A stretch of 64,000 bases of DNA from Sneathiellales bacterium (GTDB taxonomy: Bacteria > Pseudomonadota > Alphaproteobacteria > JANQFL01). Shown in pieces: positions 38,349-43,559 of the stretch. The DNA lies in the NCBI GenBank assembly GCA_028277845.1, contig JANQFL010000007.1:1-64000 (forward strand). Reading direction: 5' to 3'. Numbering within the stretch: the stretch's first letter is position 1; each line of letters starts with the position of its first letter. The position numbers and the translations under genes are program-made. Below the pieces are notes generated by a model. It was not told the origin of the DNA, did not search any database, and saw nothing but the letters and a program-made list of their open reading frames with translations.

Positions 38349-38834
38349 TTACTCCTCCTCCATCAGTTCGATCGGAACACCCGGCAAGTACTTGGATGTT
38401 CGGATCGTCAGCGACGACCGGACGTGTTCCACATTCGGGGCCGCCGTCAGTTCCTCCGTGAGGAAATGGTGGTAGGTGTCCCAGTCCTTGGCGACGATCT
38501 TCAGAATGAAATCGGTTTCGCCGGCCATCATGTACACTTCGCGCACCAGTGGCCAGGCGGCGACGCGTTCCTCGAAGGCCACCAGATCCGCTTCGGCCTG
38601 GCTGTTCAACCCGACCATGGCGAATACGGTCACCCCGAATCCCAGCGCTTCGGCATCCACGTCGGCATGAAAGCCCTTGATGTAGCCCGATTCCTCCAGC
38701 GCCCGGACCCGGCGCAGGCACGGCGGCGCGGAAATGCCGGCGCGCTTTGCCAAATCGACATTGGTGATACGGCCATCGCTTTGCAGATCGCGAAGAATCC
38801 GGCGATCAATGGCGTCCAGTTTGACCCGCTGCAT
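38349..38834 (-). CDS. Lrp/AsnC-family transcriptional regulator
   Basis: A 161-residue regulator. The N-terminal helix-turn-helix is LDAIDRRILRDLQSDGRITNVDLAKRAGISAPPCLRRVRALEE (about residues 6-48). The C-terminal RAM domain (residues 70-150) has VYMMAGETDFILKIVAKDWDTYHHFL. I start it at the ATG at 38834; the frame continues upstream without domain content. It lies just upstream of the ABC importer operon and reads the same way, so regulation of that operon by an amino-acid effector is likely. Confidence 0.88.
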   Translation of the reverse strand: MQRVKLDAIDRRILRDLQSDGRITNVDLAKRAGISAPPCLRRVRALEESGYIKGFHADVDAEALGFGVTVFAMVGLNSQAEADLVAFEERVAAWPLVREVYMMAGETDFILKIVAKDWDTYHHFLTEELTAAPNVEHVRSSLTIRTSKYLPGVPIELMEEE

Positions 38835-39058
38835 GTTGTTTGCACTCCCAGACGCGATCCCATTGTCACCGGCGTGCATGAGCCGGTATTGATGTCTATT
38901 TCGGGATGCGTGTAACGAAATATTGTTGCGCAATAATATTACACGGATCGTCACCAAGGCCAAGGCCAGGATGGTGATTTCCCATCGAATTCTGTCCTTG
39001 CCGTCGCCCCGTCACATCGCGATGATGCCCCGCCCATGAACACAGACATCAAGCATCC

Positions 39059-40024
39059 GTGACGGCCTCCCAAAAAACGTGCTGGGTTTTGACCGACGGT
39101 CGGCCGGGCAATGAAAATCAGTGCCTGGGCCTGGCGGAAGCCGTCGGTCTGCCCATTACGGTCAAGCGGGTGCGGACGCGCGCGCCCTGGCGTTGGCTGC
39201 CGCCCCGTCTGTGCTTCGGTGCCCTCCGTTCCCTTGCGCACGGCAGCGATCCCGTCGATCCGCCGTGGCCCGATCTGCTCGTCGCCACGGGGCGGCAAAG
39301 CGTCGCGATTGCGGCGGCGGTTCGGCGTGCATCCGGTGGCAAAACCGTGGCGGTGCAAATCCAGTCGCCGCACATATCGCTGAACGCCTTCGACCTGGTG
39401 GTCACGCCACGGCACGATCAACTGAGCGGAGAGAACGTCATGGCCACCCGGGGATCCCTGCACCGGGTAACGCCGCAACTGTTGGAGCGAGCCGCCGAGG
39501 CCTACCGCGACACGCTCGCGCGACTCCCCAATCCGAAGGTGGCCGTCCTGATCGGCGGCACCAACAAGTGTTATGAATTCTCACCGGCGATCGCCTCGTC
39601 GCTGTCGGCGCAACTCAAGGCGCTGGCGCACAATGCCGGCGCCGGCCTGATGATCACGGCATCGCGGCGGACGGGGGCTGAGAACGAGAAGACCCTGCGC
39701 CGTGAACTCACCGGACCCGGCATCGCGTTCTGGGACGGATCGGGCGACAACCCGTATTTCGGCTATCTCGCCTCGGCCGATGCCATCATCGTCACCTGCG
39801 ACTCGGTCAACATGGTGTCGGAAGCCTGCGCGACCGGGAAACCCGTGCATGTGGTCATGCTCGAAGGCGGCAACGCCAAGTTCAGCCGGTTTCACCAGGG
39901 CCTGGCCGAAGACGGTATCACCCGCCCCTTCAACGGCCGCCTCGAGCACTGGGACTATTCCCCGTTCAACGACACGCTCGAGGTCGCCGAACGGGTCAAG
40001 CGGCTGCTGGCGGCGAAAACCTGA
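39059..40024 (+). CDS. Mitochondrial-fission ELM1 family protein (COG3660)
   Basis: A 321-residue protein of the ELM1/DUF1022 family. It begins with CWVLTDGRPGNENQCLGLAEAVG, and later has VAVLIGGTNK and the C-terminal VTCDSVNMVSEACATGKPVHVV, which resembles the UDP-sugar site of GT-B glycosyltransferases. Bacterial members are often near lipid A or glycan genes, but no activity is established. The start is a GTG at 39059; no ATG is in frame upstream. The opposite strand is open over most of its length because of codon bias. Confidence 0.8.
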   Translation: MTASQKTCWVLTDGRPGNENQCLGLAEAVGLPITVKRVRTRAPWRWLPPRLCFGALRSLAHGSDPVDPPWPDLLVATGRQSVAIAAAVRRASGGKTVAVQIQSPHISLNAFDLVVTPRHDQLSGENVMATRGSLHRVTPQLLERAAEAYRDTLARLPNPKVAVLIGGTNKCYEFSPAIASSLSAQLKALAHNAGAGLMITASRRTGAENEKTLRRELTGPGIAFWDGSGDNPYFGYLASADAIIVTCDSVNMVSEACATGKPVHVVMLEGGNAKFSRFHQGLAEDGITRPFNGRLEHWDYSPFNDTLEVAERVKRLLAAKT

Positions 40025-40036
40025 CCTCTGTTGCCG

Positions 40037-40790
40037 GGAAGCGCGGGTTTTCTGCTGGCTGGGAACGCCCAACATCTGATTTCGGCAAACGCCGGTCTTC
40101 CGCCCGCCGGTTGTGCCCACGTTCCATTGTCGGCAGAGGCAGGGCTTCTGCCGGCGGCAAACACGGGACTTCCACCGGCCGGTTGCCCAGGTTCCGTTGC
40201 TGGCAGACGCAGAACTTCCGACGGCGGCAAATACCGGATTTCCGCCCGCCGGCTGTGCCCAATCTGTTGTTGGCAGGCTTCGGGCGTCCGCCGGCTGGGA
40301 ATTGCCCGACGTCCGCCGTGGCCGGTGCCTGACGTCCGCCAGTGGCAGGCGCCGGACGTCTGCCGGCTGGGAATGCCCGACGTCCGCCGTGGTCAGTGCC
40401 TGACGTCCGCCAGCGGGGCACGCCGAACTTTTGCCAGTTGGGAACTGCCCGACGTCTGCCGTGGCCAGTACCCGACGTCCGCCAGCGGCAGGCGCCGGAC
40501 GTCTGCCGGCTGGGAGTGCCCGACGTCTGCCAATGGCGCACGCCGGACTTTTGCCGGCCGGGAATGCCCGACGTCTGCCAGTGGCCAGTGCCCGATGTCC
40601 GCCGTCAGCAGGCGCCGGACGTCTGCCAGCTGGGAATATCCGACGTCTGCCGTGGCCAGTGCCTGACATCCGCCAGCGGCGCACGCCGGACTTCTGCCGG
40701 CTGGGAATATCCGACGTCTGCCGCCGGCCAATGCCCGACGTCTGCCAGCGGCAGACGCCGGACTTCTGCAGAAGAGAACCGCCGGGTGTC
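40037..40790. repeat. Tandem array of about 31 degenerate 24-bp units with a 72-bp higher-order period
   Basis: Each unit begins with a form of GACGTCTGCC and ends in one of three 13-14 bp tails. Tail A is GGCTGGGAATGCCC, tail B GTGGCCAGTGCC(T/C) and tail C AGCGGCAGGCGCCG. In the right half the tails cycle A-B-C about six times with one unit missing. The left half (40037-40290) is more diverged. Unit length varies from 22 to 26 bp. The C units can fold as GTCTGCC-AGC-GGCAGAC hairpins. There are no unique spacers, so it is not a CRISPR. Frames stay open on both strands because 24 is a multiple of three, but none has a convincing start. Confidence 0.85.
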
Positions 40791-40860
40791 CCGGTTTCCC
40801 GCACCCGAGACGAATTTAAGTGCGACAAAACCGCGCAGCCCGATCATCCGTCTTGAAAAA

Positions 40861-40881
40861 TAATTAGAACGTTTCTAATTA
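40861..40881. promoter_or_regulatory. Fur-superfamily operator (Irr/PerR-like) upstream of the peroxiredoxin gene
   Basis: A perfect 9-bp inverted repeat, TAATTAGAA-CGT-TTCTAATTA, lies 67 bp before the start codon. Its inner part TTAGAA-N3-TTCTAA matches the alphaproteobacterial iron-control element bound by Irr, and it also resembles PerR-type boxes. Iron, haem or peroxide control of the peroxiredoxin/thioredoxin reductase pair is inferred. Confidence 0.65.
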
Positions 40882-40948
40882 TCATTTGCGCATTGAATGC
40901 ACCGCGCATCCATACCCCTGATTTAGGTTTTATAACGGAGATTGAACG

Positions 40949-41554
40949 ATGCAGACGCTTGTCGGCAAACCGGCCCCCGACTTCACGGCCGAAGCGGTCC
41001 TTGGCAACAATGAGATCGTCGAGGACTTCAATTTCACCAACTACCGGAACGGCCGTTATGGGCTGGTGTTCTTCTATCCCCTGGATTTCACCTTCGTCTG
41101 CCCCTCGGAAATCCTCGCCCATGACCACCGCATGCCCGTATTCGAGGAAAAGGACGTGGCCGTTGTCTCGGTCAGCGTCGATTCCCAGTTTACCCACCTC
41201 GCCTGGAAAAACACGCCGGTCAACGAGGGCGGCCTGGGCCAGGTCCGGTTCCCCATGGTCGCCGACCTCAACCGGTCGATCGCCGAGTCCTACGGCGTTC
41301 TGACCGAGGACGGCAAGGTGGCCTATCGCGGCACGTTCCTGATCGACCGCGACGGCGTCGTCCGCCACCAGGTCGTCAACGACCTGCCGCTCGGCCGCAA
41401 CGTGGACGAGGCCTTGCGCATGGTCGAAGCGCTGCAATTTCACGAGGAAAACGGCGAGGTGTGCCCCGCCGGCTGGCGCCCGGGAGAGGCCGCCATGACC
41501 GCCAGCCCGGCCGGCGTCGCCGACTACCTTGCGAGCCACGCGGCGGACCTATAA
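40949..41554 (+). CDS. Typical 2-Cys peroxiredoxin (AhpC/Prx1 class)
   Basis: A 201-residue thiol peroxidase that reduces hydrogen and alkyl peroxides. The peroxidatic cysteine is Cys51 in FTFVCPSE and the resolving cysteine is Cys172 in VCPAGW, so disulphide-linked dimers are expected. Pro43-Leu-Asp-Phe-Thr and a downstream Arg complete the active site. The ATG at 40949 follows ACGGAG. The thioredoxin reductase gene 69 bp downstream is the natural electron source. Expression is probably set by the inverted repeat at 40861. Confidence 0.93.
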   Translation: MQTLVGKPAPDFTAEAVLGNNEIVEDFNFTNYRNGRYGLVFFYPLDFTFVCPSEILAHDHRMPVFEEKDVAVVSVSVDSQFTHLAWKNTPVNEGGLGQVRFPMVADLNRSIAESYGVLTEDGKVAYRGTFLIDRDGVVRHQVVNDLPLGRNVDEALRMVEALQFHEENGEVCPAGWRPGEAAMTASPAGVADYLASHAADL

Positions 41555-41623
41555 ATAGGTAAGGATATCTGATCAACTTGACAGTCGGACCGTTGCCCGC
41601 GGTTCGTTGCGAAGGAGTATGTC

Positions 41624-42592
41624 ATGACGGAGCGTCATCACAGTAAGGTTATGGTCCTTGGTTCCGGACCCGCGGGCTGCACGGCTGCCATTTATGCGGC
41701 GCGGGCCAATCTCTCGCCCATGATGGTGCACGGCATCCAACCGGGTGGCCAGCTCACCATCACCACCGACGTGGAAAACTACCCCGGCTTCGCCGAAGCC
41801 ATCCAGGGCCCCTGGCTGATGGAACAGATGGATGCCCAGGCCCGCAATGTCGGCACCGAGGTGTTTCACGACATCGTCACGGACGTCGACCTGTCGGTGC
41901 GGCCCTTCGTGTGCCGTGGCGATTCCGGCACGGTCTACACGGCCGATGCCCTGATCATCGCCACCGGTGCCCAGGCCAAATGGCTGGGGCTGGAAAGCGA
42001 ACAGACCTTCCAGGGATTCGGCGTCTCGGCGTGCGCCACCTGCGACGGCTTTTTCTACCGCGGCAAGGAAGTCGTCGTGATCGGCGGCGGCAATACGGCG
42101 GTCGAGGAAGCCATCTACCTGACCAATCACGCCACCAAGGTCACGCTGATCCACCGGCGGGATTCCTTAAGGGCGGAAAAAATCCTGCAGGACCGGTTGC
42201 TGGCCAATCCGAAAATCGACGTATTGTGGGATCACGTGGTCGACGAGATCGTCGGCGACCAGGACCCGCTCGGTGTCACCGGAGTCAAGATCCGCAACGT
42301 CAAGACGGGCGCGGAGTGCGAATTGGCGACCCACGGCGTGTTCGTCGCCATCGGCCACAGCCCGACCACCGAAGTGTTCAAGGGCCAGGTCGAGATGGAC
42401 GACGAGGGCTATATCCTGACCGCACCGGATTCCACCGCCACCAACATTGCCGGCGTCTTTGCCGCCGGCGACGTGCAGGACAAAATCTACCGCCAGGCGG
42501 TCACGGCGGCGGGCACGGGTTGCATGGCGGCGCTGGAAGCGGAAAAATACCTGGCCGAACTGGAAGCCGGACAGGCGGCCGCAGCGGAATAG
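41624..42592 (+). CDS. trxB: Thioredoxin reductase (NADPH)
   Basis: A 322-residue flavoprotein with FAD motif GSGPAG near residue 13, the redox-active CATCDG, the NADPH motif GGGNTAVEEA and the second FAD motif GVFAAGDVQD. It passes electrons from NADPH to thioredoxin or directly to a peroxiredoxin. GAAGGAG lies at good distance before the ATG. Together with the upstream peroxiredoxin it forms a complete peroxide-reducing pair, lacking only thioredoxin itself. Confidence 0.95.
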   Translation: MTERHHSKVMVLGSGPAGCTAAIYAARANLSPMMVHGIQPGGQLTITTDVENYPGFAEAIQGPWLMEQMDAQARNVGTEVFHDIVTDVDLSVRPFVCRGDSGTVYTADALIIATGAQAKWLGLESEQTFQGFGVSACATCDGFFYRGKEVVVIGGGNTAVEEAIYLTNHATKVTLIHRRDSLRAEKILQDRLLANPKIDVLWDHVVDEIVGDQDPLGVTGVKIRNVKTGAECELATHGVFVAIGHSPTTEVFKGQVEMDDEGYILTAPDSTATNIAGVFAAGDVQDKIYRQAVTAAGTGCMAALEAEKYLAELEAGQAAAAE

Positions 42593-42665
42593 CCGCGGGT
42601 CATCCGGCCGGCGCCGTATCAACCGGACACAGAAACGATCCGGGCTTCGATCATGAGAGGGCCAT

Positions 42666-43559
42666 ATGGGGTTGATGGACTGGGATAAGCTGCGCGTTTT
42701 TCATGCCGTCGCGGAGGCGGGCAGCTTTACTCATGCCGGAGACACCCTGAACCTCAGCCAGTCCGCCGTATCCCGCCAGATCAGCGCCTTGGAGCAGAGC
42801 CTCAAGGTGCCGCTGTTTCACCGCCACGCCCGGGGCCTCATCCTGACCGAACAGGGCGAGATGCTGTACCGCACGGCGCACGATATCTTCGGCAAGCTCG
42901 CCGTTGCCGAAGCCGTTCTGCGCGATACCAAGGACCGCCCGAAAGGCGAATTGAAGATCACGACCACGGTCGGGTTCGGTTCCACCTGGCTGACGCCGCG
43001 GATCCGCGAACTGCTGGAAATCTATCCCGAACTGACGGTCAATCTGATCCTGTCCGACCGGCAGCTCGACCTGAGCATGCGGGAAGCTGACGTGGCCGTC
43101 CGGTTCGGCGCCCCGACGCAGCCGGATCTGATTCAGCGCAAGCTGCTGGCCGTGCACCATCACCTGTTCGCCTCGCCGGAGTATCTGAAGAAACACGGCA
43201 CACCGGTGGACCCCGCCGACCTGAAGGACCACCGGCTGATCGTTTATGGCGAGGCACCACCGCTGCCGATCGCCAACATCAATTGGCTGATGGACCTGAC
43301 CGGCGGCGAAGTGGTTCGTCCGGTGCTGCGGGTCAACAATGTCTACGGCCTGTTGCTGGCGGCCGAATCGGGACTGGGCATTGCCGCTTTGCCCGACTAC
43401 ATCGTGCAGGGCCACAGCAAACTGGTGCAAATCCTGCCAGAAATCGAAACGCCGGAATTCGACGCCTATTTCGTCTATCCGGAGGAATTGCGCCACTCGA
43501 AGCGGATTTCCGTTTTCCGGGATTTCCTGGTGCGCAAGGTCGCGGAGTGGCGGTTCTAG
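42666..43559 (+). CDS. LysR-family transcriptional regulator
   Basis: A 297-residue regulator. The N-terminal helix-turn-helix is LRVFHAVAEAGSFTHAGDTLNLSQSAVSRQISALEQ (about residues 8-43). The C-terminal effector domain has KGELKITTTVGFGSTWLTPRI and AVRFGAPTQPDLIQRKL. It reads in the same direction 73 bp after trxB. No divergent target gene is adjacent, so its targets are not obvious. Confidence 0.88.
   Translation: MGLMDWDKLRVFHAVAEAGSFTHAGDTLNLSQSAVSRQISALEQSLKVPLFHRHARGLILTEQGEMLYRTAHDIFGKLAVAEAVLRDTKDRPKGELKITTTVGFGSTWLTPRIRELLEIYPELTVNLILSDRQLDLSMREADVAVRFGAPTQPDLIQRKLLAVHHHLFASPEYLKKHGTPVDPADLKDHRLIVYGEAPPLPIANINWLMDLTGGEVVRPVLRVNNVYGLLLAAESGLGIAALPDYIVQGHSKLVQILPEIETPEFDAYFVYPEELRHSKRISVFRDFLVRKVAEWRF

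Follow-up and report, generated by a model that had tools for sequence, protein, structure and literature searches.

A Single-Copy, Non-Coding Tandem Array with Nested Periodicity, Probably a Minisatellite Acting as a Passive Spacer, Lies between an ELM1-Family Gene and a Peroxiredoxin Gene in a Sneathiellales Bacterium

The gap between an ELM1-family protein gene and a peroxiredoxin gene in a Sneathiellales bacterium holds a tandem array of about 740 bp, in which 24-bp units are ordered into 72-bp trimers and an 11-unit stretch of 263 bp is itself duplicated. The array does not code for protein, is present once in the genome and is absent from the relatives that we searched. It is probably a minisatellite, non-coding and specific to its lineage, whose periods are nested and which acts as a passive spacer. 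The array preserves a clean record, made in nature, of nested duplication between bacterial genes in steps of 24, 72 and 263 bp. Its main value as it stands is that a striking pattern can be explained without a new system. Coordinates below refer to the window, the whole 64-kb stretch of DNA that was analyzed.

Split by its core, the array at 40046-40784 (no strand assigned to it or its parts) consists of 31 units of 22-25 bp each. The units run head to tail and are each longer than 10 bp, as in bacterial intergenic minisatellites. In the right half, most units carry GACGTCYGCC, either exactly or altered at one or two positions. The tail that follows sets the unit type, A (GGCTGGGAATGCCC), B (GTGGCCAGTGCCY) or C (AGCGGCAGGCGCCG), and the types succeed one another in an A-B-C cycle. 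To the left, positions 40037-40045 are not clearly of repeat character. All seven rows that Tandem Repeats Finder (TRF) returned for the window sit on the array interval. Base-level self-match over 40046-40785 was 0.499 at lag 24, 0.484 at lag 72, 0.526 at lag 143 and 0.532 at lag 263. These values are 10-12 SD above the mean of about 0.286 (SD 0.02) for Markov null sequences generated from the array itself. An earlier note on this DNA, made from the sequence, had described about 31 contiguous 24-bp units at nearly the same position; TRF, the unit count and the self-match all bear this out.

The order of the units is not random. Likeness between units three places apart was matched in none of 2000 order permutations when all units were used and in 4 of 2000 for the right half; when only the ten units on the left were permuted, 15 of 2000 matched it. 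This upholds the A-B-C cycle of the earlier note. The 72-bp super-period that it drew from this cycle exists as well, but is not confined to the right half, since the 70-72-bp trimers of the left half align in phase with those on the right. The left part (40046-40282) has ten units with a trimer period of 70-72 bp and cores that mostly read CTTC rather than CGTC. The proposal that the older, diverged units lie on the left is supported.

The right half is an 11-unit block of 263 bp (40283-40545; order A B C A B C A B C A C) followed by its tandem duplicate, which starts at 40546 and runs to about 40785, with its last, degenerate unit at 40761-40784. One B unit is absent from the cycle, between 40498 (A) and 40522 (C). 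The two block copies share 199 identities, 84% of the aligned bases, and no other lag in the right half reaches the self-match seen at lag 263 (0.733). Periods of 143 and 191 bp, also given by TRF, score lower. This block duplication, which had previously been missed, is the strongest layer of the array. With the copies 16% diverged, the last large duplication is not recent; their differences comprise 29 transitions versus 8 transversions.

These patterns suggest that duplication of a 24-bp sequence was followed by divergence of the copies into types A, B and C, that the 72-bp trimer was then amplified across the whole 740 bp, and that the 11-unit, 263-bp stretch in the right half was later duplicated in tandem. 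We infer this order from relative divergence. The repeats probably multiplied by replication slippage or by unequal exchange with one another, after which the copies would have drifted, mainly by transitions. Repeated unequal exchange of a three-unit block had been suggested before; repeated block duplication is supported by our results, and exchange would be one way to achieve it.

Units of bacterial minisatellites or VNTR loci are longer than 10 nt (PMC3899988). The array resembles these loci in its head-to-tail units of more than 10 bp, its intergenic position and the expectation that it changes by slippage or recombination. It differs in having three unit types in a fixed cycle plus an 11-unit block duplication, and in that its units are not near-identical but 12-50% diverged. 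Apart from this unusual layering, it has the look of an ordinary bacterial minisatellite. A non-exhaustive literature search on nested tandem repeats in bacteria returned only work on eukaryotic genomes. In eukaryotic satellites such as alpha satellite, diverged monomers follow a fixed cycle and a multi-monomer block is copied as one. The array shares with such higher-order repeats the fixed monomer cycle followed by block copying. Unlike alpha satellite, it spans only 740 bp in one bacterial gap, its largest block is present twice, and it shows no sign of a centromere role.

To determine how widely the repeat occurs, we searched the whole 5.39-Mb assembly, related genomes, and phage and plasmid sequences. 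BLAST gave only one 38-bp match elsewhere in the assembly, matches to a degenerate pattern were at background level outside the array, and a profile of the 72-bp trimer found the array locus only. The array is single-copy in this genome. A role in chromosome organization, raised previously, is therefore not favored. Neither BLAST nor a profile search recovered the repeat from 385 genomes of the class, and a pattern of two cores did not recover it from 399 genomes of the phylum. No comparable array was present among 25 related ELM1 loci. The array is thus lineage-specific in that it is absent from the relatives searched, none of those returned for comparison being nearer than class. Weak matches in other genomes were short and isolated; seven such loci were inspected and none carries a comparable array. 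Four profile matches in other genomes lie in open frames. The phage search gave no match. Two 35-bp matches in a plasmid collection (E 5e-3) are not credible as an array, and two viral contigs have one core pair each without an array. An origin from a phage or plasmid was rejected, as there was no phage match and only these two plasmid matches.

On the left, the array is flanked by an intact gene for an ELM1-family protein (PF06258; 39059-40024, plus strand), the stop codon of which lies about 20 bp before it. To its right is a gene on the same strand for an AhpC/TSA peroxiredoxin with a 1-cysPrx_C domain (40949-41554). Upstream of the peroxiredoxin gene and outside the array, the plus strand has promoter-like hexamers (40853-40882) that overlap a perfect 10-bp inverted repeat, ATAATTAGAA-CGT-TTCTAATTAT (40860-40882). 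The array thus sits between the ELM1-family gene (ending at 40024) and the peroxiredoxin operator (40860-40882), where it had been placed before. A literature search returned nothing direct on the 40860-40882 palindrome, which we take, as a lead only, to be akin to Irr/ICE-type operators. One other locus (L031) has a similar palindrome, ATTAGAATAACTCTAAT, upstream of its own peroxiredoxin gene (upstream of 10174). As the peroxiredoxin gene has its own promoter-like site and inverted repeat, and a similar palindrome is found in L031, regulation of the gene does not appear, judged by these sites, to need the array.

Many alphaproteobacterial loci share the gene order Lrp, ELM1, thioredoxin reductase, LysR (window 38349-43559; L024-L048). 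Among the loci seen, this one and L031 alone have a peroxiredoxin gene inserted in this order. Three Microvirga loci (L036, L039, L040) have a gap of about 70-85 bp between ELM1 and the reductase. In L031 the gap exceeds 3 kb and holds the peroxiredoxin gene; here it contains both the array and the peroxiredoxin gene. Positioned upstream of the peroxiredoxin operator in a gap of variable length and content, the array is most likely only a passive spacer.

The main rival to the minisatellite reading is a clustered protein-binding array, in which a protein would recognize GACGTCYGCC, which holds the palindrome GACGTC, at about 21-31 sites spaced some 24 bp apart, with the tails as spacers. Such an array might insulate or tune the neighboring peroxiredoxin promoter or titrate the protein. 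The motive for this reading is a contrast between core and tail among the right-half units. Over the contiguous core, positions one to ten of the unit, differences amount to 12% within unit types and 14% between them, while the tails differ by 24% within and 49% between, and unit length stays near 24 bp. We simulated nested duplication at uniform rates with no exchange between units. With settings close to the observed divergence, 0-0.6% of runs reached the observed contrast; with the most divergent setting, 1.8% did. Simple neutral drift in which units exchange no sequence leaves the contrast unexplained, which counts against the minisatellite reading. The contrast could reflect constraint on binding sites or short-tract exchange that homogenized the cores but not the tails, from which the same pattern is expected. 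Because exchange was not part of the model, the simulations do not separate the two, and both readings remain compatible with them.

Other observations argue against binding sites. When the two block copies are compared, the difference between core and tail is not significant (p = 0.10). The palindrome is broken in several cores (GACTTC, GATGTC, GACATC), and a 1.0-Mb sample from elsewhere shows no clear enrichment of the core (14 sites versus a mean of 9.7 for shuffled cores). The relatives searched lack the array. In iteron and clustered operator arrays, a short conserved core recurs at regular spacing with more variable sequence between. The array is similar in its regularly spaced short core and variable intervening sequence; it differs in having no adjoining replication gene or known cognate protein, and in that many of its cores are degenerate. 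A binding array is a possible but on balance unlikely reading of the core pattern. We consider it rather unlikely that the array is, more specifically, a dedicated cluster of about 21-31 putative sites with the GACGTCYGCC core, built by nested duplication, selected in one lineage, and controlling or insulating the peroxiredoxin and thioredoxin reductase genes. If the conserved core were under selection, this would be an unusual single-locus binding array beside redox genes.

We also considered whether the array might act as RNA, either as a transcribed 3' region of ELM1 or as a non-coding RNA in its own right, with a chain of hairpins that would stabilize or terminate transcripts. Hairpins are predicted on both strands, as had been proposed, with RNA folds more stable than those of dinucleotide shuffles (z = -3.7 for the plus strand and -6.4 for the minus strand); the plus DNA strand also folds better than such shuffles. 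This is expected of a unit that is partly self-complementary. A functional chain of hairpins is not supported. Column-permuted arrays with the same unit consensus folded more stably than the natural array in 200 of 200 cases for the plus strand and 197 of 200 for the minus strand. The covariation term in a consensus fold of eight trimers was unfavorable, and no covarying pairs were detected in the array, pair counts equaling those of shuffled controls, in a comparison with power limited by all units coming from one locus. Neither covarying base pairs nor a match to a described family, as expected of a structured non-coding RNA, was found; the best Rfam match of the array fell well under the gathering score. 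No intrinsic terminator was found on the plus strand after ELM1, and the C/G ratio of the array (about 1.04) lacks the signature of Rho loading. A function as a hairpin RNA is accordingly quite improbable.

A mobile element that bears a minisatellite is very improbable. The precedent is BrickBuilt of Porphyromonas gingivalis, a MITE that occurs 19 times per genome, with a 23-bp tandem unit and small inverted-repeat ends (PMC4596501). Like the array, BrickBuilt has no spacers between units of similar length, is always intergenic and is species-limited (PMC4596501). Unlike BrickBuilt, the array lacks both the terminal inverted repeats and the several copies per genome of a MITE-borne minisatellite: the best inverted match between its flanks scored 7, a score equaled in 169 of 300 shuffles, and no second genomic copy was found.

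That the array encodes a short repeat protein, as the earlier note had also suggested, is just as improbable, and is excluded in practice by the 263-bp period and the 70-71-bp trimers. The suggestion has in its favor that long frames stay open over the array on either strand, the longest reaching 415 aa on the minus strand and 211 aa on the plus strand. The 24-bp unit has a high GC content and almost no stop codons. The 415-aa frame, however, runs antisense across about 440 bp of the ELM1 gene. Furthermore, 263 bp leaves a remainder of 2 when divided by 3 and several trimers are 70-71 bp long, so that the frame is broken, units are read in differing frames and no repeat peptide is maintained. 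The array therefore does not have the period in multiples of three, read in one frame, of a tandem-repeat protein. In none of five readings that span the array did a Pfam match exceed the cut-off; a match to cornifin in a reading of the array looked significant yet was below the curated score. Lying between genes (40024 and 40949) and without an accepted domain, the array is intergenic and untranslated. Together with the flanks devoid of inverted ends and the single genomic copy, the Pfam result supports the earlier view that no known protein family or mobile element accounts for it.

In a survey of 1.39 of the 5.39 Mb of the same genome, all other arrays of comparable score had a period divisible by three and an open frame across them. 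The 24-bp array thus stands apart from them as non-coding. Contig C2 of this genome has three loci with repeats in open frames. A 165-bp tandem repeat with 3.9 copies lies inside a frame that stays open for about 0.9 kb (L062:14523-15162; C2:14523-15162). At L067:12066-12728 (C2:112066-112728), NPCAAK-like tandem repeats within some 1.4 kb of open frame encode a cysteine-rich repeat protein. The third locus, L071:1262-19999, has a frame open over at least 18.7 kb, with repeats of 300 bp (4.8 copies) and glycine- and aspartate-rich repeats of 27 bp, and it probably encodes a giant surface or secreted protein.
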